A stretch of DNA of 64,000 nucleotides from Weeksella virosa DSM 16922 (GTDB lineage Bacteria; Bacteroidota; Bacteroidia; Flavobacteriales; Weeksellaceae). Under the pieces are notes generated by a model. It did no database searches and was not told the origin of the DNA. It saw only the letters and a list, made by a program, of their open reading frames with translations. The first letter of the stretch is position 1; each line of letters opens with the position of its first letter. Both the position numbers and the translations under genes were made by a program. Positions 44,453 to 63,516 of the stretch are shown one piece after another. The DNA lies in the NCBI RefSeq assembly GCF_000189415.1, contig NC_015144.1:1598001-1662000 (forward strand). Direction: 5' to 3'.

Positions 44453-44715
44453 TGCAAAGAATGGTGAATACAGACATTTCAGTAAAGATTAATGAAATAT
44501 TAATGGAGGAATTTGAAGTAGAAGCAAATGCTATTTCAAAGGAGAAAAATATCAAAGAAACATTAGACTTAGATAGTTTGGATTATGTTGATTTGGTGGT
44601 AATTATCGAATCTAACTTTGGAGTGAAATTGGTCAAAGAAGACTTCTTGAGTATGATAACCTTTGAGGATTTTTATACCATCATTCAACAAAAAATAGAC
44701 GAAAATAAAGCGTAA
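44452..44715 (+). CDS. Acyl carrier protein
   Basis: An 87-residue protein with the phosphopantetheine attachment serine in LDLDSLDYVDL (Ser42), matching the DSL motif of acyl carrier proteins. The N-terminal few residues could start at ATG 44452 (overlapping the synthase stop) or at ATG 44461; coupling favours the first. It would carry the aryl polyene intermediates or the beta-keto chains for DarB. A second carrier protein is at 54285. The TAA overlaps the ATG of the acyltransferase. Confidence 0.9.
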   Translation: MQRMVNTDISVKINEILMEEFEVEANAISKEKNIKETLDLDSLDYVDLVVIIESNFGVKLVKEDFLSMITFEDFYTIIQQKIDENKA

Positions 44716-45593
44716 TGACCCAATGGGAAGGAAAATCGAAGGGGACTTTACTTGGGTATAAAATTTTTGTATACAGTATAAAAAAATTAGGCATACGGAC
44801 AGCGTATATAGTTCTTTTGTTCGTTGCTTTCTATTACTTCTTGTTTGCTTGGTCGAGCAATCGAGTGATGTATAATTATTTTCGGAAAAGACAAAACTTT
44901 TCTATTTCACGATCAATTGTTGGTATCTATAAAAATTATTACATATTTGGGCAAACTCTACTCGATAAAGCCACAATATCTATGGGGTTCCGCAATTGGT
45001 TTACGTATGATTTTGATGGAATCGAAATTCTGAAATCTCTTATAAAAGAAAAAAAAGGAGGAATCTTAATTAGTGCACACGTCGGCAATTTCGAAATTGC
45101 AGAATATTTCCTAAACGATATCAATACCGATATTAATATCCATTTGGTTACCACCGATTTGGAGCGAGATGCAATAAAAAATTATATGGAACAGATTCGA
45201 GTGAAATCAACCATAAAATTTATTGTGATACAAAAAGATATGTCACACATTTACCAAATAACCGATACACTTTCTCGTAACGATTTGATTTGCTTTACAG
45301 GAGATCGTTTTTTTGAAGGAAACAAAACGCTCGAAGAAAATTTATTAGGCGGATTGGCACAATTTCCCGCAGGACCATTTTATATTGCATCACGCTTACA
45401 TGTCCCAGTGGCTTTTGTATATGTGATGAAGGAACCCAATTTGCATTACCATTTATACACGAGAAAAGCAAATTTCAGGCACCGTGACGCACAGCAATTA
45501 CTCAAAGAATATTGTGCAAGTGTAGAAGGTATCCTAAAAAAATATCCATATCAATGGTTTAATTATTTCGATTTTTGGAAATCTACCCGATAA
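44715..45593 (+). CDS. LpxL-like acyltransferase
   Basis: The 292-residue protein has a membrane segment near the N-terminus (about 28-48) and the lipid A late acyltransferase catalytic motif HVGNFE (near residue 118; His-x4-Glu), with a later FTGDRFFEGN block. Members move acyl chains from ACP to a hydroxyl acceptor at the membrane. In a flexirubin locus it is one candidate for joining the polyene acyl-ACP to the resorcinol, or for membrane anchoring; the BtrH-type protein at 49131 is the other. It is coupled by overlap to the acyl carrier protein gene. Confidence 0.8.
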   Translation: MTQWEGKSKGTLLGYKIFVYSIKKLGIRTAYIVLLFVAFYYFLFAWSSNRVMYNYFRKRQNFSISRSIVGIYKNYYIFGQTLLDKATISMGFRNWFTYDFDGIEILKSLIKEKKGGILISAHVGNFEIAEYFLNDINTDINIHLVTTDLERDAIKNYMEQIRVKSTIKFIVIQKDMSHIYQITDTLSRNDLICFTGDRFFEGNKTLEENLLGGLAQFPAGPFYIASRLHVPVAFVYVMKEPNLHYHLYTRKANFRHRDAQQLLKEYCASVEGILKKYPYQWFNYFDFWKSTR

Positions 45594-45602
45594 TAGTTTG
45601 GT

Positions 45603-46520
45603 ATGAAAAAAGTATTGGTTATTTATTATTCGCAATCGGGGCAATTGAAAGATATAGCCAATTCGATAGCACAACCTCTGGTAAATGATACAACCATTGA
45701 AGTAGATTTTTATCCTATCAAGATGAGAAAAGACTTTCCTTTTCCGTGGGATAAAGAAAGTTTTTTTGGAGTTTTTCCCGATTCATTTGGGCAAATACCG
45801 CATGAGATTTTAGCACCTCCTACCGAAATTCTTCATCAGAAATATGATCTTATTTTATTGCATTATCAGGTTTGGTATTTATCTCCTTCTATTCCAGTTA
45901 ATTCTTTCCTACAATCCATATACGCAGAACAACTTCTAAAAAACACAAAGGTGATTACCGTAAGTGGTAGCCGAAATATGTGGGTATATGCACAAGAGAA
46001 AATGAAGAAAATTCTTCTAGCCCAAAAAGCACATTTGGTAGGAAATATCGCCCTTACGGATAGAAATATAAATTTAATCAGTGTAGTTACCGTAGTCGAT
46101 TGGATGTTTACTGGTCTTAAAAGAAAAGCATACGGAGTTTTTCCTTTGCCCGGTGTTAGCAAAAAAGAAATTTACCAAGCCCGAAAGTTTGGCGAAATAA
46201 TCCGGAATGCTTTGCAGAATGACAATTTAAATGAAATACAAACCAAATTAGTTGCAGCAGGTGCCGTAGAAATTAGATGGTTTTTGGTATCAATGGATAA
46301 AAAAGCTAATCGGTTGTTTGCTGTTTGGATAAAGATTTTTAGAGCAAATCCTACTAAGAAATCCCTTCTAATCAAACTCTTTAATATATATTTGTTGATA
46401 GTGATTTGGTTCGTATCCCCGATCGTACATCTCATAGAAACGCTTTTCTATCCATTTTTTATTGGCAAGAAAAGACAACAAAAAAAATATTATCAAGGAA
46501 TCAATCTATCAGAATGTTGA
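45603..46520 (+). CDS. darA: Dialkylresorcinol condensing enzyme DarA
   Basis: The 305-residue protein begins with a flavodoxin-like segment (KKVLVIYYSQSGQLKDIAN, 2-20) and has a hydrophobic C-terminal helix (near 265-285), as in DarA proteins. DarA aromatises the cyclohexanedione produced by DarB into a 2,5-dialkylresorcinol using an FMN-like redox step. Its stop overlaps the darB ATG (46514) by 7 bases, and DarA-DarB pairs are the diagnostic pair of flexirubin loci. The family call rests on the gene pair and the overall pattern. Confidence 0.85.
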   Translation: MKKVLVIYYSQSGQLKDIANSIAQPLVNDTTIEVDFYPIKMRKDFPFPWDKESFFGVFPDSFGQIPHEILAPPTEILHQKYDLILLHYQVWYLSPSIPVNSFLQSIYAEQLLKNTKVITVSGSRNMWVYAQEKMKKILLAQKAHLVGNIALTDRNINLISVVTVVDWMFTGLKRKAYGVFPLPGVSKKEIYQARKFGEIIRNALQNDNLNEIQTKLVAAGAVEIRWFLVSMDKKANRLFAVWIKIFRANPTKKSLLIKLFNIYLLIVIWFVSPIVHLIETLFYPFFIGKKRQQKKYYQGINLSEC

Positions 46521-47653
46521 ACAATGTCTATATAACACGTAGCGCAAAATTTCTACCTAATAAAGCAATTTCCAATGATGAAATGGAAGATTATTTAGGG
46601 CAAATTAATCAACTTCCCTCCAAAGCAAGAAGAGTTGTTTTGAGAAATAATGGTATAATAAAAAGATATTATGTAGTCGATAAACAACAAAATATACACT
46701 ACACAAATGCAGAACTAACCGCTAAAGCAATAGGAAAATTGTTTGATGATCAGGTGGTTATGCAAGATGTGCAGGTTTTGTCTGTTGGTACATCCACGCC
46801 AGATCAGTTGTTGCCATCTCACGCATCGATGGTGCATGGATTACTAAAAAATCCTTCGGTAGAATTAAACTCTTCTAGCGGCATTTGTTGTTCTGGGATG
46901 AATGCTCTGAAATTTGCTTATCTATCTGTTTTGTCTGGCACGGCCAAAAATGCAGTAAGTTCTGGATCAGAATGTGTTTCTCCATGGATGTTGAGTAAAC
47001 GATTCGATCAAGAGATAGAAAACATAAAAGAACTTGATCAACAACCGATTATAGCTTTTCGTAAAGAATTTTTACGCTGGATGCTATCCGATGGAGCAGC
47101 TGCTTTTTTATTACAAAATAAACCCAATGAAAACGCTATTTCATTGAAAATAGAGTGGATGCAATCGTATTCTTATGCGCACGAAACAGAAGCTTGTATG
47201 TATGCGGGTGCAGAAAAAAACGAGGAAGGTGAATTGGTTCCATGGCAAAATTATTCTAATGAAGATTGGCTGAAAAAATCCATATTTAGTATCAAGCAAG
47301 ATGTAAAAGTTTTAGATGAATTTATCCTAGTAAAAGGCGTTGAGAGTATGTTAGATGCTCTAAGAAAGCATCAGATTTCGGTAGACGATATCGATTATTT
47401 TTTACCACATATTTCATCAATGTATTTTAAGGATAAATTATACGATAGTTTCAAAAATGCCAATTTCGAGATACCATTCGATAAATGGTTTATTAATTTG
47501 GATAAAGTAGGGAATGTAGGAGCTGCATCGATTTATTTGATGGTCGAAGAACTCATGAATTCAGGGAAGTTGAAAATTGGGGATAAAATATTATTATCTG
47601 TACCAGAAAGTGGACGATTTTCTTACGCTTATGCTTATCTTACCGTTGTTTAA
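46514..47653 (+). CDS. darB: Beta-ketoacyl synthase III DarB
   Basis: With start at ATG 46514 the protein has 379 residues. A KASIII-type core is visible: Cys126 in SGICCSGMN, His in FLPHISSMY (near 298) and Asn in VGNVGAASIY (near 337), forming the Cys-His-Asn triad. DarB couples a beta-ketoacyl thioester with an enoyl thioester and cyclises to a carboxycyclohexanedione. Upstream codons in frame (from 46406) lie inside darA and are not family-like. The TTG/ATG overlap with DarA indicates coupling. It is followed by two hot-dog proteins. Confidence 0.9.
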   Translation: MLNNVYITRSAKFLPNKAISNDEMEDYLGQINQLPSKARRVVLRNNGIIKRYYVVDKQQNIHYTNAELTAKAIGKLFDDQVVMQDVQVLSVGTSTPDQLLPSHASMVHGLLKNPSVELNSSSGICCSGMNALKFAYLSVLSGTAKNAVSSGSECVSPWMLSKRFDQEIENIKELDQQPIIAFRKEFLRWMLSDGAAAFLLQNKPNENAISLKIEWMQSYSYAHETEACMYAGAEKNEEGELVPWQNYSNEDWLKKSIFSIKQDVKVLDEFILVKGVESMLDALRKHQISVDDIDYFLPHISSMYFKDKLYDSFKNANFEIPFDKWFINLDKVGNVGAASIYLMVEELMNSGKLKIGDKILLSVPESGRFSYAYAYLTVV

Positions 47654-48736: not shown

Positions 48737-49144
48737 ATGAAGAAGAATGAAGTACCGCAAGACGAAAGCTTTCTGAGTAAAAACAATCTCTCCGAACTAT
48801 ACTATGTCGTAGACGAAGACGGACATTTCACCACCGAACAATCGAGTGGCTGGGAACCCAAAACCATTATGCAAACAGAAACTTTGCGTGTCTTACAACA
48901 ACGTGTAGAGAAAGCAAAAGAAAAGGTGAAACAAGGAAAAGTAAGTCCTATAGTTTATTATATGGAATTGAATAAAATGGACTGGCCAACTTTAGCTGCT
49001 TATATGCACAAGTGGCCTTTTTTTATAAAAAGACATGCCAAACCAAATGTATTTAATCGTCTGAATGATAGTGTGTTGAGTAAATATGCAGAAGTGTTCG
49101 GTATAACTTTAGAAGAACTAAAAAAAATCGATGGAAAAAAATAA
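48737..49144 (+). CDS. Conserved hypothetical with helix-turn-helix-like C-terminus
   Basis: The 135-residue protein has a disordered/acidic N-terminus (1-45), a coiled helix (about 47-68, rich in Lys/Glu), and a C-terminal segment (81-128) with WPTLAAYMHKWPFFIKRH and VLSKYAEVFGITLEEL that resembles an Xre-type helix-turn-helix. It overlaps the BtrH-type gene by 14 bases, so the two are coupled. It may be a regulator or an adaptor of the BtrH-type protein; I cannot name the family. It occurs at the start of the second sub-operon. Confidence 0.55.
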   Translation: MKKNEVPQDESFLSKNNLSELYYVVDEDGHFTTEQSSGWEPKTIMQTETLRVLQQRVEKAKEKVKQGKVSPIVYYMELNKMDWPTLAAYMHKWPFFIKRHAKPNVFNRLNDSVLSKYAEVFGITLEELKKIDGKK

Positions 49145-50141
49145 AGAAATTCCATTTGTACATCACCAATCAGCGCATTGCGAAACAGGAGTAGCCTCTA
49201 ATTTATTAAAAAACAGAGGACTAGACATTAGCGAAGCCATGGTTTTTGGTATTGGATCTGGGTTGTTTTTTGTATACCTGCCTTTTCTCAAAGTAAATCA
49301 CGCACCTGCGATAAGTTATCGTCCAATGCCGGGAAGAATTTTTACCTGTTTGGCAAAGCGTTTAGGCTTGAAAATAGAGCGAAAAAAATTTCGATCAGAA
49401 GAAGAAGCACAAAAACTACTTGATCAGAAAATAGCAGAAAATATTCCCTGTGGTTTGCAAGTTGGGGTTTATAATTTACCTTATTTTCCAGATGAATATC
49501 GCTTTCATTTCAATGCACATAATTTAGTAATCTACGGAAAAAAAGAAGATCACTACTTGGTGAGTGATCCAGTGCTCAATCACCCAACAGAACTTTCTGC
49601 AAAAGATTTAGAAAAAGTACGTTTTGCAAAAGGTGTTTTAGCACCCAAAGGACATATGTATTATCTGACCGAAATTGCTACACATATCGATTGGGATAAA
49701 GCAATACGAAAAGCAATCCAAAAAACATGCAACGAAATGTTGGCACCTGTACCTATTGCAGGGGTTCGAGGAATGCGGTGGTTGGCAAAAGATATCCGAA
49801 AATGGCCGAAGAAAATCGGTAATGTAAAAACCAACTATTATCTAGCACAAATAGTAAGAATGCAAGAGGAAATAGGAACTGGAGGTGGAGGTTTTCGGTA
49901 TTTATTTGCTGTATTTTTACAAGAATCTTCAGAGAAAATACAACAACCTATTTTAGATGATTTTTCTAAAGAAATGATTGCTATTGGCAATCAGTGGAGA
50001 GATTTTGCTTTACAAGCTTCTAGGGTTTATAAAAAGAGGAGTCAATTAGAAGAAGTGTACAATACATTAGCAGATGAACTATTGGTTTTGGCCAATAAAG
50101 AAGAAGATTTTTTTAAGCGTCTGAAAAAAGCTCTGAAGTAA
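49131..50141 (+). CDS. BtrH N-terminal domain protein, candidate ACP-dependent acyltransferase
   Basis: The 336-residue protein has HQSAHCETGVASNLLKNRG (12-30) with Cys17, followed by ISEAMVFGIGSGLFFVYLP, the pattern of the BtrH N-terminal domain, which in butirosin synthesis moves an acyl group from a carrier protein to an amine. The C-terminal half is helical with FSKEMIAIGNQWRDFAL near 285-300, as in the DUF4872-like partner region. In a flexirubin locus a transferase is needed to join the polyene acyl-ACP to the resorcinol hydroxyl. The role is inferred. The start overlaps the upstream HTH-like gene and its stop overlaps the ABC ATPase ATG. Confidence 0.7.
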   Translation: MEKNKEIPFVHHQSAHCETGVASNLLKNRGLDISEAMVFGIGSGLFFVYLPFLKVNHAPAISYRPMPGRIFTCLAKRLGLKIERKKFRSEEEAQKLLDQKIAENIPCGLQVGVYNLPYFPDEYRFHFNAHNLVIYGKKEDHYLVSDPVLNHPTELSAKDLEKVRFAKGVLAPKGHMYYLTEIATHIDWDKAIRKAIQKTCNEMLAPVPIAGVRGMRWLAKDIRKWPKKIGNVKTNYYLAQIVRMQEEIGTGGGGFRYLFAVFLQESSEKIQQPILDDFSKEMIAIGNQWRDFALQASRVYKKRSQLEEVYNTLADELLVLANKEEDFFKRLKKALK

Positions 50142-50884
50142 TGATCCAAATCAAAAACATCTCTAAACGTTATACATCCTACGAAAATACCGCTCTAGAT
50201 GCAGTGTCTTTTTGTATTCCCACTCAATCTATTTTCGGTATTCTTGGTCCTAATGGTGCCGGAAAAACAACCTTAATTACCATGATGTGTGGTCTTCAAA
50301 AGCCAACCGAAGGTGAGATTATTATCAACGGGTTGAGGTACGATAAAAATGCCAAAAGCATAAAAGCCTTAATAGGAGTAGTACCCCAAGAATACGCTTT
50401 GTATCCTACCTTAACAGCTTATGAAAATCTAATTTATTTCGGAAGCATGTATGGATTAAAAGGAAAAAATCTGAAGGAAAATGTGTCGAATTCTCTAGAA
50501 AATATGGGACTGAAATCCTTTGCTAATAAAAGAATAGAAACTTTTTCGGGCGGAATGAAAAGAAGAATAAATCTCTTGGCTGCGGTTTTACATCAACCAA
50601 AAATTCTATTTCTCGATGAGCCAACTGTAGGAGTCGATGTGCAATCGAAAACAAAAATTATAGAGTTTTTGCATCACCTAAATTCTACCGGAACTACAAT
50701 CGTATATACATCGCATCATCTTCGAGAGGCACAAGATTTTTGTACCGAAATAGCAATTCTCGATCAAGGAAAAATAAAAGCAATTGGTTCGCCGAAAAAC
50801 TTACTCGAGTCTTATCCTAATACGAAAAACTTAGAGGACATTTTTATTCAATTAACCGGGAAAAACTTACGAGATGTTACATAG
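50141..50884 (+). CDS. ABC transporter ATP-binding protein
   Basis: The 247-residue protein has Walker A GPNGAGKTT (about 37-45), signature FSGGMKRR (about 136-143), Walker B ILFLDEPTVGVD and the switch histidine in TSHHL. It forms the ATPase of an ABC-2 exporter with the permease that overlaps its 3' end (50874). The BtrH-type gene overlaps its start. In this cluster it may export a lipid-like or pigment intermediate; substrate unproven. Confidence 0.88.
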   Translation: MIQIKNISKRYTSYENTALDAVSFCIPTQSIFGILGPNGAGKTTLITMMCGLQKPTEGEIIINGLRYDKNAKSIKALIGVVPQEYALYPTLTAYENLIYFGSMYGLKGKNLKENVSNSLENMGLKSFANKRIETFSGGMKRRINLLAAVLHQPKILFLDEPTVGVDVQSKTKIIEFLHHLNSTGTTIVYTSHHLREAQDFCTEIAILDQGKIKAIGSPKNLLESYPNTKNLEDIFIQLTGKNLRDVT

Positions 50885-52151
50885 ACTTTGGCAATCTGTG
50901 AAAAAAGAAGCTTTATTACTCTTTCGTGATTATGGCGGTTTAGCGGTGTTGTTTGTTATGCCGATGATTTTAGTTGTGATGGTCACGCTGATCCAAAATC
51001 AGGCTATGCAAGGGCAAACATCGCAAGCATTCCCTTTGTTGTTTATCGACCATGATCAAGATTCGGTTTCACATTCTATTCGGCGACAATTAGTGCAAGA
51101 AAATACATTTTTTTTGATAGATTCTCTCAATGGAAAAGTCCTGAATGAATCTACTGCAAAAAAACTGGTGTATGATGGTAAATATCAATTAGCTTTGATT
51201 CTACCGAATAATTTATCCAAAGATTTGCACACAAATGTCGAATTTAATGTAGAAGAAATCGTAGGAGATTTTGGACTTTATAACACCACGGATAAACCCA
51301 AACAAAAAAATAAGCCCAAAGAAATCGAGTTGATTTTCGATCCTGCTGTCCAAGAAAATTTCAAGAACAATGTGAAATTTGGAATCGAAAAAATAATTTA
51401 TAAAGCCCAATCAGAAACTATTTATCAAACGTTCAGAGAATATTTAGGCGAAGATACAGCACCCAATTTTCAGCAAGATCAATTGATCACTTATAAAGAA
51501 ATTTCCGCAATCAATCATCAAGACAAAGAACCAAACGCAGTACAACACAATGTACCAGCATGGACACTATTTGCAATATTTTTTATCATAGTACCTTTGT
51601 CTGTCAATTTGGTGAATGAGAAGAATTTAGGGACAAACTTTAGGTTGCGAACAAGCCCGATGCCATATTCTACCTTGCTTATAGGTAAAATAATTATTTA
51701 TCTTGTAGTATGTTTGTTGCAGTTTTTCTCCATCATTCTTTTATCTCAGTTACTTTTTCCACTTATCGGATTAGAAATTTTAGACATCGAAGGTAAATTA
51801 CCCATGATGCTTTTTTTTACCATTTTTGTCAGTTTAGCAGCCATAGGGTTGGGGATTTTATTAGGTGTAATTTCTAAAACACAAGAGCAAGCACCACCAT
51901 TCGGAGCTACTTTTGTGGTCATTCTAGCTGCTTTAGGAGGGATTTGGATTCCGGTTTTTATGATGTCTACAACTTTTCAGAAAATAGCAAAACTATCTCC
52001 AATGCATTGGGGACTGAGCGGGTATTATGATATCTTACTGAGAAATGCATCGCTATCATACATCCTACCCGAAATATTTTCCCTACTTTTGTTTTTCCTA
52101 TTCTGTTTAGGCTTATCCATACTTTATGACAGAAAAAAACAAGGCAATTGA
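50874..52151 (+). CDS. ABC-2 transporter permease
   Basis: The 425-residue permease has an N-terminal membrane helix (about 20-40), a large extracytoplasmic region (about 42-220), and a C-terminal set of five helices (about 225-420) with TLFAIFFIIVPLSVNLVNEK before the RLRTSPMPYS coupling segment. It overlaps the ATPase gene by 11 bases and the thioesterase gene by 26 bases, both in other frames. Its topology is of the NatB-type export permease. Confidence 0.85.
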   Translation: MLHRLWQSVKKEALLLFRDYGGLAVLFVMPMILVVMVTLIQNQAMQGQTSQAFPLLFIDHDQDSVSHSIRRQLVQENTFFLIDSLNGKVLNESTAKKLVYDGKYQLALILPNNLSKDLHTNVEFNVEEIVGDFGLYNTTDKPKQKNKPKEIELIFDPAVQENFKNNVKFGIEKIIYKAQSETIYQTFREYLGEDTAPNFQQDQLITYKEISAINHQDKEPNAVQHNVPAWTLFAIFFIIVPLSVNLVNEKNLGTNFRLRTSPMPYSTLLIGKIIIYLVVCLLQFFSIILLSQLLFPLIGLEILDIEGKLPMMLFFTIFVSLAAIGLGILLGVISKTQEQAPPFGATFVVILAALGGIWIPVFMMSTTFQKIAKLSPMHWGLSGYYDILLRNASLSYILPEIFSLLLFFLFCLGLSILYDRKKQGN

Positions 52152-53684: not shown

Positions 53685-54297
53685 ACAGCTGTATATCCAA
53701 GATTATGTACAAATTTTGCCCAACAGAATTCGGCAAAACGACCAAATTATTTTTGATAAAGAAGATATAGGGACATTTGCTGACTTTTCTAAAGAAATAT
53801 ATAAGATGCTAGAAATTTCTTATCCGAAATTTTATAAAATGGATGAGCTTTCTAAAATAGCAATACTTGCTTCAGAAATGATTTTCATACAGAATGACTC
53901 TCAAGATACCGCCCTTCTTTTTTGCAATCGTACTGCAAGTTTATATACCGATAGTAAACATCAAAAAAGTATTTCAGACCAAGAAAATTATTTCCCGAGT
54001 CCTTCTGTTTTTGTTTATACACTGCCTAATGTTTGTGTAGGTGAAGTCAGTATCCGATATCAATTACAAACCGAAAGTGCATTTTTTGTTGCCGAAGAAA
54101 TGCCATTTTCTTTGCTAGAAAATCAAACAAAATACCTTTTGAAAACAGGTAAAGCAAGGCAAGTCTTGTGTGCATGGATAGAATATTATCAAGAAAACTA
54201 TTCTGCTTTTGTATATTTGGTTTCTGAAGAAGGAAAAATACCTTATCAAGAGAATTATTTAAAAAATAGATACAAGGAAATATCATGGAAGATTTAA
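53674..54297 (+). CDS. Short, synthase-like protein without catalytic residues
   Basis: The 207-residue protein resembles the N-terminal half of a ketosynthase: a stretch ILASEMIF...DTALLFCNRTASLYTDS and, around residues 108-128, SPSVFVYTLPNVCVGEVSIRY, the part that precedes the active-site cysteine in synthases. The Cys-containing nucleophile loop and the two catalytic histidines are absent. It starts inside the end of the synthase at 52566 and its end overlaps the second acyl carrier protein (54285), so it is a conserved, not vestigial, part of the operon by position. A structural partner role for one of the synthases is a guess. Confidence 0.6.
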   Translation: MGDKQLYIQDYVQILPNRIRQNDQIIFDKEDIGTFADFSKEIYKMLEISYPKFYKMDELSKIAILASEMIFIQNDSQDTALLFCNRTASLYTDSKHQKSISDQENYFPSPSVFVYTLPNVCVGEVSIRYQLQTESAFFVAEEMPFSLLENQTKYLLKTGKARQVLCAWIEYYQENYSAFVYLVSEEGKIPYQENYLKNRYKEISWKI

Positions 54298-54542
54298 TTT
54301 TAGAATTGAAGAATAAAATCGTAGAAGTTCTTAACTTAGAGGATGTTAACATAGAAGATATTCAAGCAAATGAACCGTTATTTGGTGATGGACTAGGATT
54401 GGATTCTATCGATGCTTTAGAACTTATTGTATTGATGGATAAAGATTATGGAATCAAAATTGCAGACCCAAAACAGGGTAAAACCATTTTCGAATCAATC
54501 GAGTCAATGGCTCAATATATCACCGACAATAGAACAAAATAA
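54285..54542 (+). CDS. Acyl carrier protein (second)
   Basis: The 85-residue protein carries the phosphopantetheine serine in GLGLDSIDALELIVL (Ser41) with a DSI variant of the usual DSL motif. Overlaps with both neighbours (12 bases upstream and 1 base downstream) show tight coupling. Together with the carrier at 44452 it supplies two ACPs, as in aryl polyene clusters where the two have different roles. Confidence 0.9.
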   Translation: MEDLILELKNKIVEVLNLEDVNIEDIQANEPLFGDGLGLDSIDALELIVLMDKDYGIKIADPKQGKTIFESIESMAQYITDNRTK

Positions 54543-59865: not shown

Positions 59866-62800
59866 ATGTACCAATTATTCTATCGATTTTACAAATGGGT
59901 AAACCGACATCGATCACTAAGTATTGGTTTGGCTCTGATCAGTTTATTGGTAGGTTTTTTTATTATTTCTAGCCTGAAGATAGAAGATGATATAACGAAA
60001 ATACTCCCTAAAAGTGAACAAGGAAATATCACCACAAAAGTTTTTCAACAACAAAATTTTTCAGACAAAATTACCGTTCTTGTTCAGAAGAAAAATGGTG
60101 GTAATGATGAGCAATTGATAGACGCTGCAGAAGCAATCGAACTCGAGTTAGAAAAGTATAAGAATTCTATAATAAGTATTCAAGGTGTACAAAATGAAGA
60201 AATTTTAGAAGATGCTTTTACGATGGTATATAATCATTTACCAAACTTTTTGTCGGATGATGATTATACGATAATTGAACAGAAAATCAATCAAGATTCG
60301 ATTCGTGCATTAACCCAAACTAATTATGAGCGTTTAACTTCTCCTGCTGGAATTATTAGTCGAAATTTTATCCTAAAAGATCCATTAGGTTTAACTTTTT
60401 TGGGCATGAAAAAATTGCAGGAAATGAGCTCCATGAGTGATTTGTTGTATCAAGATGGTTATCTTTTTACCCAAGATAAATCGACACTATTGCTTTTTAT
60501 CAATCCTAAACATAAAAGCGGTGATACCCAAAACAATGCAGCGTTTGTAGAGGGGATAAAAGAAATAGAATCGAAAATCAATAAAGAGTTTACACACATA
60601 AATGTTCAGTTTTTTGGTGCACCCATTATTGCAGTTGCCAATGCGAAGCAAATAAAATCTGATATCATAAAAACCATTGCAATTTCTATGAGTTTTTTGG
60701 TGGTACTTTTAATGTTTTTTTATCGGAAAATCTCAATTCCCCTAATATTATTTATCCCAACAGTTTTTGGTTTTACAACAGCGCTGGTAATAATTTATTT
60801 TATCCGAAAAGAAGTATCCGCGATTTCAATCAGTATAGGAGCAGTTTTATTGGGAATTACGATTGATTATGCTTTGCATATGATGACACATTTTAGAGAA
60901 AAACAGTCTGTAGAAATCCTATACAAAGAAATTACTCAACCCATACTTATGAGTTGTCTTACGACGGCAACAGCCTTTATTTGTCTAGTGTTTTTGCACT
61001 CTGATGCTTTAATCGATTTAGGGATTTTTGCGTTCATTACGGTATTGATGAGCGGTATTTTTACTTTACTTTTCATCCCACATTTGTATCGTCCTAGATT
61101 AGCAAAATCAGAAGAAAAAACTACATTTATTGACCGATTTGCTTCGCTCAGTTTCGATCAGAATAAACCGTTGATTTTTGTCACGTTGGTGTTGGTGATA
61201 GTAAGTCTATTTACATTTTCTAGCGTAAAATTCAATCAAGATTTATCGAGCCTGAATTACACGCCAGAAGATCAATTAAAAGCTGAAAAAACCTTGTCTC
61301 AAAAGACATCGATGATGCAATCTTCTTTGTATTTGGTGAATTATGGCAGTTCATTAGAAGAAGTGCTAGAAGAGTCAGAAAAAGTTTTTTTTCGTTTACA
61401 AAAAGATTTAAAAAACTCTAAAATCGAAGATTTCTCTTCTATTTCTCCACTATTATTACCCAAAAATAAGCAACAAGAAAAAATAGAAAAATGGAATTCC
61501 TTTTGGACAGAAGAAAGAAAATTACAACTGAAAAAAATGTTGATTAATGAAGGTGAAAAAGTAGGTTTTCTACCAGAAACATATTCAGAATTTTATACAC
61601 ATTTATCGAACCGATTTTCTCTTCTAACTCCTAAAACCATTCGAGATTTTGACACAACATTTTTTGATCAATTTATAACCTCTAAAGATAGTTTTTATAC
61701 AGTTTCTACATTGGTTAAAGTCCACCCAAAACAGAAACAATTCTTTATACAAGACTATCATACTGCCGAGAAAAATGTGCTAATAGACCGTAAACAGCTG
61801 ATCGAGACATATTTAGGTGCAATGGTGAGCGACTTTAATCGATTGATTAATTACTCTTCTATAGCCATTATAATTATACTTTGGATATTTTTCAGACGAG
61901 TAGAATTGGTCCTGGTAAGTTTATTGCCAATCATTGTTACAGCATTGGTTACAGCAGGTTTGATGGGACTTTTTAAAATAGAATTCAATATTTTTAGTTC
62001 CATAGTGTGTACTTTAATTTTTGGTCATGGTGTAGATTTTAGTATTTTCATGACAAGTGCATTGCAAAGACAATATACTACTGGAATCAACGAAACTAAA
62101 AGCTACAAAATTTCGATTCTTTTAGCAGTAACAACCACCTTGTTAGCCATCGGATCATTAATTTTTGCACAACATCCAGCCCTAAAATCTATTGCTTCTA
62201 TTGCTATAATAGGAGTTTCGGTTGCTGCTCTTGTAACGTTTGTTTTGTACCCACCAGTTTTTCGGTTTCTGTTTTTCAATCGCCCACGTAAAGGACTATC
62301 CCCCGTTAGTTTACGCATTGTTATCACAACATTTTATTTGTTTTTCTATTTTATTTTCTTCGGAATTATCTTGAACGGAATCATTCGTATTTTACGAATT
62401 ATTGTACCAATATCTCGGCAAAAAAAATACCAGCTTTTTGATTGGCTTCTAACCAATTTTATGAAAACTATTCCCTATCTGAACCCTTTTGTTAAAAAGA
62501 AAATAATCAATCATTCAGCCAAAAACCATCAGCAAACCGTTTTTATATCTAATCATTCGAGCTCGCTCGACATACCGCTAAATAAAATGTTGCTTAAACA
62601 CTCTATTTTTGTGGTCAATGATTGGGTTTATCGTTCGCCTATTTTTGGAAAAGCAATTCAATCGGCCGGTTTTTTTCCAATTTCCAAAGGGATCGAAAGT
62701 AATTTAGAAAAGCTCAAAAATCGTATAGGAAATGAATTTTCTGTCATCATTTATCCAGAAGGAACGCGTTCACCAAACAATGCCCTTGGTCGTTTTCATA

Positions 62801-63516
62801 AAGGAGCTTTTTATTTGGCTAATGAACTCGAACTCCCTATTCAACCATTGTATTTGTTAGGTGTTTCGGATGTTTGGCCAAAAAATGAATGGTTTATTTT
62901 CGATGGTCAACTAACTTGTGTTTTCGGAAAAGTTATTCAACCAAATGATCAAAATTATGGTACATCATACAGCGAACAAGCCAAAAAGATAAGTCGACAT
63001 TTCAAAGAAGAATATCAGAAATTACGAGATTATTACGAAGATGAAAATTATTTTAGAAAAAAATTATTTTTAAGCTTTCTGTATAAAGAAAATGAGGTTG
63101 TCCATGAAATGAAGATAAATTTTGACCAAAAAAAAACTGTTTATCATGAATTGAACGTTTTACTAAACAAAACAGGAAAAATTTACCGTTATGCAAATGA
63201 TTTTGGCGAATTTGATTTTATTTTGACAATGCAACAGCCCAAAAGAGAAATGTTAACCTATATAGAAAGCAAAGAAAAAAGAGCGATTGCCCAAACCAAT
63301 TATATAACAAAAACTCGAGAAATTCTTTACCTAACCAATGAAACAATTCCAGAAGATTGCACAATTATGATTGTTGATGCACAAAAATTTACTATAGAAA
63401 TATCAACATCTATCAAAGAAATCTTTGTTGTAGATACCTCTCTTTCTGTAGAACATTTTACCGACTTTGTCATAAAATATCCTACCGATAACTTCATGCA
63501 CTTGAAACGATTATGA
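59866..63516 (+). CDS. MMPL exporter fused to PlsC-type acyltransferase, with a degenerate methyltransferase tail
   Basis: The 1216-residue protein has an RND/MMPL exporter (about 1-800; two six-helix blocks each preceded by a large periplasmic loop), a lysophospholipid acyltransferase domain with NHSSSLD (896-902, catalytic His897 and Asp902) and YPEGTR (963-968), and a C-terminal region of about 150 residues (from about 1055). In many flavobacteria the C-terminus is a full SAM-dependent methyltransferase (trifunctional protein); here that region is shortened and the glycine-rich SAM loop (VDIGCG-like) cannot be found, so it is probably non-catalytic. The protein would export and remodel the pigment or its lipid precursor. 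It overlaps the next gene (ATGA). Confidence 0.82.
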   Translation: MYQLFYRFYKWVNRHRSLSIGLALISLLVGFFIISSLKIEDDITKILPKSEQGNITTKVFQQQNFSDKITVLVQKKNGGNDEQLIDAAEAIELELEKYKNSIISIQGVQNEEILEDAFTMVYNHLPNFLSDDDYTIIEQKINQDSIRALTQTNYERLTSPAGIISRNFILKDPLGLTFLGMKKLQEMSSMSDLLYQDGYLFTQDKSTLLLFINPKHKSGDTQNNAAFVEGIKEIESKINKEFTHINVQFFGAPIIAVANAKQIKSDIIKTIAISMSFLVVLLMFFYRKISIPLILFIPTVFGFTTALVIIYFIRKEVSAISISIGAVLLGITIDYALHMMTHFREKQSVEILYKEITQPILMSCLTTATAFICLVFLHSDALIDLGIFAFITVLMSGIFTLLFIPHLYRPRLAKSEEKTTFIDRFASLSFDQNKPLIFVTLVLVIVSLFTFSSVKFNQDLSSLNYTPEDQLKAEKTLSQKTSMMQSSLYLVNYGSSLEEVLEESEKVFFRLQKDLKNSKIEDFSSISPLLLPKNKQQEKIEKWNSFWTEERKLQLKKMLINEGEKVGFLPETYSEFYTHLSNRFSLLTPKTIRDFDTTFFDQFITSKDSFYTVSTLVKVHPKQKQFFIQDYHTAEKNVLIDRKQLIETYLGAMVSDFNRLINYSSIAIIIILWIFFRRVELVLVSLLPIIVTALVTAGLMGLFKIEFNIFSSIVCTLIFGHGVDFSIFMTSALQRQYTTGINETKSYKISILLAVTTTLLAIGSLIFAQHPALKSIASIAIIGVSVAALVTFVLYPPVFRFLFFNRPRKGLSPVSLRIVITTFYLFFYFIFFGIILNGIIRILRIIVPISRQKKYQLFDWLLTNFMKTIPYLNPFVKKKIINHSAKNHQQTVFISNHSSSLDIPLNKMLLKHSIFVVNDWVYRSPIFGKAIQSAGFFPISKGIESNLEKLKNRIGNEFSVIIYPEGTRSPNNALGRFHKGAFYLANELELPIQPLYLLGVSDVWPKNEWFIFDGQLTCVFGKVIQPNDQNYGTSYSEQAKKISRHFKEEYQKLRDYYEDENYFRKKLFLSFLYKENEVVHEMKINFDQKKTVYHELNVLLNKTGKIYRYANDFGEFDFILTMQQPKREMLTYIESKEKRAIAQTNYITKTREILYLTNETIPEDCTIMIVDAQKFTIEISTSIKEIFVVDTSLSVEHFTDFVIKYPTDNFMHLKRL

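Follow-up and report, generated by a model that had tools for sequence, protein, structure and literature searches.

Flexirubin is a long-standing chemotaxonomic marker. Its polyene acyl chain is joined to a dialkylresorcinol (DAR) by an ester bond, and the locus described here raises the question of which enzyme forms this ester. In the literature, we found no paper that identifies or tests the joining enzyme; for Chitinophaga pinensis, the ligase-like FlxW has been suggested for this step (PMC3992019). The window, i.e. the whole stretch of 64,000 nucleotides from Weeksella virosa DSM 16922 that was analysed, contains a BtrH-type gene, darH, which a sequence-only reading had put forward as a plausible alternative to a nearby LpxL-like acyltransferase gene. 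The comparison presented below recasts the gap at the flexirubin ester as a choice that can be tested between these two genes, and presence/absence patterns, natural separations of the cluster modules, conservation of the predicted catalytic triad and a full-length fold match agree in upholding the proposal for darH.

The pigment cluster and its BtrH-type gene

The first part of the cluster consists of genes for a tyrosine ammonia-lyase type lyase, a KR, a KS, an ACP, the LpxL-like acyltransferase, DarA, DarB and two dehydratase-like proteins. It is followed by darG, darH and the genes for an ABC ATPase, an ABC permease, a 4HBT thioesterase, three KS-type proteins and an ACP, and the last part encodes a polysaccharide deacetylase, LolA, a dehydratase, a glycosyltransferase and an MMPL-acyltransferase fusion (Table 1). 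Among named relatives, mostly Flavobacteriaceae, 69 loci of 19 kb or more show nearly the same gene order. Beyond the window end (L099:8036-9685), the further cluster genes encode a FAD oxidoreductase, a protein that combines a lipoprotein-like N-terminus with an AAT (PF03417) acyltransferase domain, and an AMP-binding ligase. The MMPL and acyltransferase parts, fused here, are two separate genes in Azoarcus.

Table 1. Features of the pigment cluster discussed in the text (positions in the window).
Feature	Position	Strand	Assignment	Basis
LpxL-like acyltransferase	44715..45593	+	polyene/export block	PF03279, 32 bits vs cut-off 22.3
darA	45603..46520	+	predicted resorcinol-forming aromatase, DarB partner	weak flavodoxin-type match; adjoins darB in gene maps
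darB	46517..47653	+	dialkylresorcinol-forming ketosynthase	NCBIfam NF053539, 665 bits vs cut-off 550
darG	48737..49144	+	obligate upstream neighbour of darH; C-terminal half with predicted lambda-repressor-type HTH fold	NCBIfam NF053545
darH	49131..50141	+	BtrH-type papain-fold acyltransferase, predicted triad Cys17-His130-Asp146	Pfam/NCBIfam, alignment, model, fold matches
ABC transporter ATPase	50141..50884	+	DAR cassette; gained/lost with darA-darH	PF00005
ABC-2 type permease	50874..52151	+	DAR cassette; gained/lost with darA-darH	PF12698
ACP	54285..54542	+	acyl carrier protein	PF00550; gene maps
MMPL exporter with C-terminal PlsC-type acyltransferase domain	59866-63516		one 1216-aa protein	

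The darH ORF runs from an ATG start to a TAA stop and encodes 336 aa. The ORF, its domains and its N-terminal motif bear out the earlier description of a BtrH-like protein with a Cys17 motif: the stretch HCETGVASNLL, beginning with H16-C17-E18, is intact, and both halves of the protein exceed the Pfam gathering scores, namely BtrH_N (PF14399) at residues 16-147 (E 1e-51, 175 bits against 29.7) and DUF4872 (PF16169) at residues 158-331 (E 1e-60, 204 bits against 28). The protein is a full member of the NCBIfam equivalog NF053550, 'BtrH-related acyltransferase DarH' (507.3 bits against a cut-off of 300), covering positions 2-325 of the 325 in the model, and nothing in its sequence sets it apart from the family. 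The acyltransferase assignment is already present in this family name; our literature search found no paper on the function of DarH or testing the acyltransferase role or substrates of NF053550. A search of the whole host genome with the NF053550 profile found this copy only, and, as the sequence-only reading had it, the acyltransferase at 44715 is LpxL-like by its Pfam match. The closest named relative of DarH is from Weeksella massiliensis (88% identity). The first 14 nt of darH lie within darG, and at the other end 1 nt is shared between the TAA of darH and the ATG of the ABC ATPase gene, a spacing typical of compact operons.

C17, H130 and D146 are identical in all of the 121 aligned DarH proteins and are also found in four remote paralogues. 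The structure model of DarH (pLDDT 87.3, pTM 0.87) is papain-like, and inspection of Cys17 in it, proposed earlier as a check, puts this residue where the first long helix begins, with H130 and D146 on or after the strands following that helix, as in papain folds. Sequence searches of the PDB with DarH (phmmer and profile) gave no relative, and relatives emerged by fold search only. The full-length fold matches are CtaG, AziU3 and CcbD (Z 21-24, about 290-306 residues), and identity to the CtaG/CcbD-type matches is 12-17% (Foldseek). The invariant Cys-His-Asp together with the full-length match groups DarH with CtaG/CcbD-type enzymes, and carrier-dependent acyl transfer by DarH is predicted. 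The fold search also matched the N-terminal domain to C39 peptidases of ABC exporters, at Z about 15 and over about 130-165 residues only; DarH is not itself a C39 peptidase domain, being a separate protein with a helical DUF4872 domain. All of the 121 proteins have Arg at positions 290 and 303 and either Lys or Arg at 301. The distance of these positions from the C-terminus is close to that of the carrier-docking arginines of CcbD, and the residues are mostly not retained in the paralogues; the basic group R290/K301/R303 is a candidate ACP docking site, which we offer as a lead only.

Distribution of darH and separation of the cluster modules

In three Bacteroidota genome samples, comprising 148 genomes from the order of the window, 247 from the phylum and 201 from a second order, which share some genomes and are phylogenetically clustered so that the counts are not additive, DarH was found in 26, 18 and 36 genomes, and DarB in the same 26, in 19 (18 shared; strong matches) and in 37 (36 shared), respectively. 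DarH thus tracks full-length DarB almost one to one. In the first sample, DarB exceeds the cut-off in 25 of the 26 genomes, the remaining one being G088, where darB is split. At that locus (L106), darA and darB both seem frame-broken, and darG and darH are intact. In the phylum sample the exception is G362, which carries polyene genes and a TetR-DarB locus that stands alone, with neither darA nor DarH. The exception in the second order, G414, has an isolated darA-darB pair without darH, and a search for its polyene ketosynthase returned only FabF-like background at 34% identity. DarH is likewise absent from the polyene-only cases, i.e. G095, G362 and six mapped clusters (L176-L179, L181, L183). 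DarH is therefore present where DAR and polyene genes occur together and absent where one of them occurs alone, with G414 as the single clear DAR-only genome; this one genome supports the view that DarH may be dispensable for DAR itself. Fisher tests gave tiny p-values, but these ignore relatedness, and the comparison on a tree is the fairer view. When the states are placed on the tree of 49 polyene ketosynthases, DAR/DarH switches at least 4 to 5 times, in no case accompanied by LpxL; a sign test on this tree was not significant, with too few independent pairs.

We treated DarB-like proteins below the cut-off, namely fusions of about 617-640 aa and those of lone HTH/TetR-DarB loci, as distinct from canonical darA-darB. 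DarB-like ketosynthases in proteins of 616-640 aa occur at L101:10076-11926, in G133 and in several genomes of the second order, outside pigment clusters where examined; the protein at L101 has an extra C-terminal region and adjoins a fatty-acid-hydroxylase-like gene. On plasmids of gut/oral Bacteroidales (L109, L110, L111), a DarB-like gene directly follows an HTH/TetR regulator, and darA, darH and polyene genes were not found beside it. The remote DarH paralogues (L103, L104, L105, L117; about 27-31% identity) fall below the cut-off and were not counted as DarH. Two of them, at L103:10443-11423 and L105:10128-11114, carry the same triad and lie outside pigment clusters, and a gene-by-gene inspection of their contexts revealed no pigment genes.

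The gene maps show three kinds of cluster. Full clusters such as L187 and L189 contain both blocks. In the polyene-only clusters the genes of the DAR block are missing, namely darA, darB, darG, darH, one of the dehydratase-like genes and the ABC pair; L176, L177, L178, L179, L181 and L183 keep LpxL, LolA, the glycosyltransferase and MMPL as far as the fetched stretch reaches. The block darA-darB-DH-darG-darH-ABC-ABC is present or absent as a unit in otherwise collinear clusters (L189 versus L178). The third kind combines polyene genes with darA-darB-darG-darH-ABC-ABC-ACP (L153, L154, L163, L166, L171, L172 and, in two pieces, L115 and L127 of G236), and LpxL, LolA, the deacetylase and MMPL were not found within the fetched stretches. 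In G116, about 360 kb separate the DAR module, which includes darH, from the polyene module, and LpxL stays with the latter. In G163, darG-darH stand alone with no ABC gene beside them, the polyene genes are 24 kb away and darA-darB are on another contig. A homologue of the ACP listed in Table 1 adjoins the DAR cassette when the cassette is separate and also occurs in polyene-only clusters; this ACP is a possible carrier of the donor acyl group.

Proposed role of DarH and the alternatives

DarH is probably the acyltransferase that forms the flexirubin ester, through a CcbD-like ping-pong cycle with DarG as partner and transport by the ABC transporter. Family membership, the conserved triad, the predicted fold, linkage to DarA/DarB and polyene genes, and constant pairing with DarG are observed, whereas we infer which molecules serve as donor and acceptor, how the catalytic cycle runs and what DarG and the transporter do. 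The aryl-polyene acyl group, bound to the phosphopantetheine of ACP, would be passed to Cys17 of DarH. With His130 and Asp146 activating it, a phenolic hydroxyl of the dialkylresorcinol would then attack the acyl-enzyme and release the ester, and the adjacent ABC transporter would move the product or a precursor. In the case of G163, the location of darG-darH apart from darA-darB counts against this role. The co-occurrence is also compatible with another function that involves DAR plus polyene, e.g. handling of the hybrid before export, and cannot separate the two.

In all 125 loci examined, darG is the gene immediately before darH, including those where the pair is separated from all other pigment genes. 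DarG has no significant Pfam match, and a PDB sequence search with its profile gave no relative. In the DarG model (pLDDT 82.4, pTM 0.63), the C-terminal helical domain resembles lambda-repressor-type HTH domains over about 62 residues with Z about 10, a value within the caution range of the tool for small helical domains, and the matches include the HTH domain of the biosynthetic enzyme HppE; such a fold is suggestive. DarG would be an adaptor, perhaps a docking or stability factor for DarH, and a role as regulator is a possible alternative. We make no claim that DarG corresponds to AziU2, which was absent among the listed fold matches of DarG.

As for the LpxL-like gene, its candidacy for the ester gains from its position next to darA in the present cluster type and from an LpxL-type HX4E motif (HxGNFE and close variants) in most LpxL-like matches, and in E. 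coli aryl-polyene clusters the late transfer of the polyene onto its lipid requires apeD, a gene of comparable role (PMC8253772). The gene is, however, retained in clusters without darA-darB-darH, stays with the polyene module of G116, and is missing from the clusters of 21 genomes that possess DarB, DarH and a polyene ketosynthase, the latter with 56-100% identity to the G236 copy in all 21. In the second-order sample, 26 genomes have an LpxL-like gene, 15 with DarH and 11 without, and the strong LpxL-like matches in the 148-genome sample include one in G095, a genome that lacks both DarB and DarH. Pfam gave no acyltransferase family, apart from that of DarH, for the proteins tested from the G236 cluster; the whole G236 genome has one LpxL-type gene (PF03279), located on another contig, and the five other genomes tested have 2 each. 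Judged by gene content, the LpxL-like protein is an unlikely ester former, and we regard this assignment as very improbable. Since the gene is kept in polyene-only clusters and missing in the 21 genomes, lipid anchoring of the polyene fits it better than esterification of the resorcinol, and a second, lipid-anchoring exit of the polyene, as with the late attachment genes of the E. coli aryl-polyene pathway (PMC8253772), appears the better fit. Tentatively, full flexirubin clusters may have two exits for one polyenoyl-ACP, i.e. the DarG-DarH ester and an LpxL/glycosyltransferase/LolA/MMPL lipid anchor, either of which relatives have dropped. If so, the latter block would give a lipid-anchored polyene comparable to the aryl-polyene lipids.

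DarH might instead serve DAR synthesis or transport, by acyl loading or release for DarB or by work like that of a C39-type domain with the ABC transporter. Consistent with this, darH accompanies the DAR cassette throughout, in most cases with the ABC transporter genes next in line, and its N-terminal domain has the C39 resemblance described above. On the other hand, darH is missing from G414, which keeps darA-darB, and from DarB loci free of polyene genes, DAR was formed in E. coli by the DAR proteins of Azoarcus (PMC3949708; exact gene set not specified here), and the full-length fold matches are carrier-dependent acyl-transfer enzymes whereas the C39 peptidases cover just one part of the protein. 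This explanation is improbable. We give still less credence, and the least of all, to another acyltransferase of the extended cluster as the ester former. The AAT-domain protein and the MMPL fusion both have acyltransferase-type domains, but neither was found in the G236 cluster neighbourhood, the fetched stretches covering the distribution of the AAT protein only poorly; the MMPL exporter occurs in polyene-only clusters, and the lipoprotein-like N-terminus of the AAT protein places it probably outside the cytoplasm, away from acyl-ACP. DarH is now supported as a better candidate than the LpxL-like gene, with polyenoyl-ACP as putative donor and the resorcinol as putative acceptor.

DarH compared with known systems

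Outside Bacteroidota, to which the genome samples belong, the betaproteobacterial comparison comes from a single study (PMC3949708). The DAR cluster of the arcuflavin producer Azoarcus lists a 'BtrH-like peptidase', darE, and a DAR-aromatase as the counterpart of darA, in the order darA-darB-x-BtrH-ABC...permease-ACP-KS, the same as here; a polyene-DAR ester was deduced for arcuflavin from its mass spectra (PMC3949708). The names clash, as 'darH' of Azoarcus is a PilT-domain gene (PMC3949708).

BtrH of butirosin biosynthesis, with which DarH has the Pfam N-terminal domain in common, is an ACP:aminoglycoside acyltransferase, its donor being loaded on an acyl carrier protein (PMC10318531, PMC7356214); it N-acylates an aminoglycoside amine, whereas the reaction proposed for DarH is O-acylation of a phenol by a polyene chain. 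CcbD takes the acyl group from a carrier protein onto its own cysteine and then to an amine in a ping-pong reaction, and accepts fatty acyl groups (PMC12945683). The lincosamide enzymes CcbD/LmbD match DarH over the full length (Z 21-22, about 303-306 residues, about 15% identity) and have a similar Cys-His-acid triad, but they form an amide with an amino sugar and their triad acid is Glu, in contrast to Asp in DarH. For CtaG of closthioamide biosynthesis, 4-hydroxybenzoyl transfer to an amine has been proposed (PMC6772006). CtaG is the best fold match (Z 24, about 294 residues, 12-13% identity), and its solved variants at C11, H128 and D144 mark residues spaced like C17, H130 and D146 of DarH. 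AziU3 of azinomycin biosynthesis also matches over the full length (Z 22-23) and, as AziU3/U2, has a partner protein, although the pathway differs. That the characterised relatives considered here form amides, not aryl esters, counts against the proposal for DarH. If the proposal holds, DarH would be, to our knowledge, the first enzyme forming a phenol O-acyl (aryl) ester in this papain-fold, carrier-dependent and otherwise amide-forming group. The prediction that follows, phenol ester formation by a fold known for making amides, would be of use for biocatalysis.
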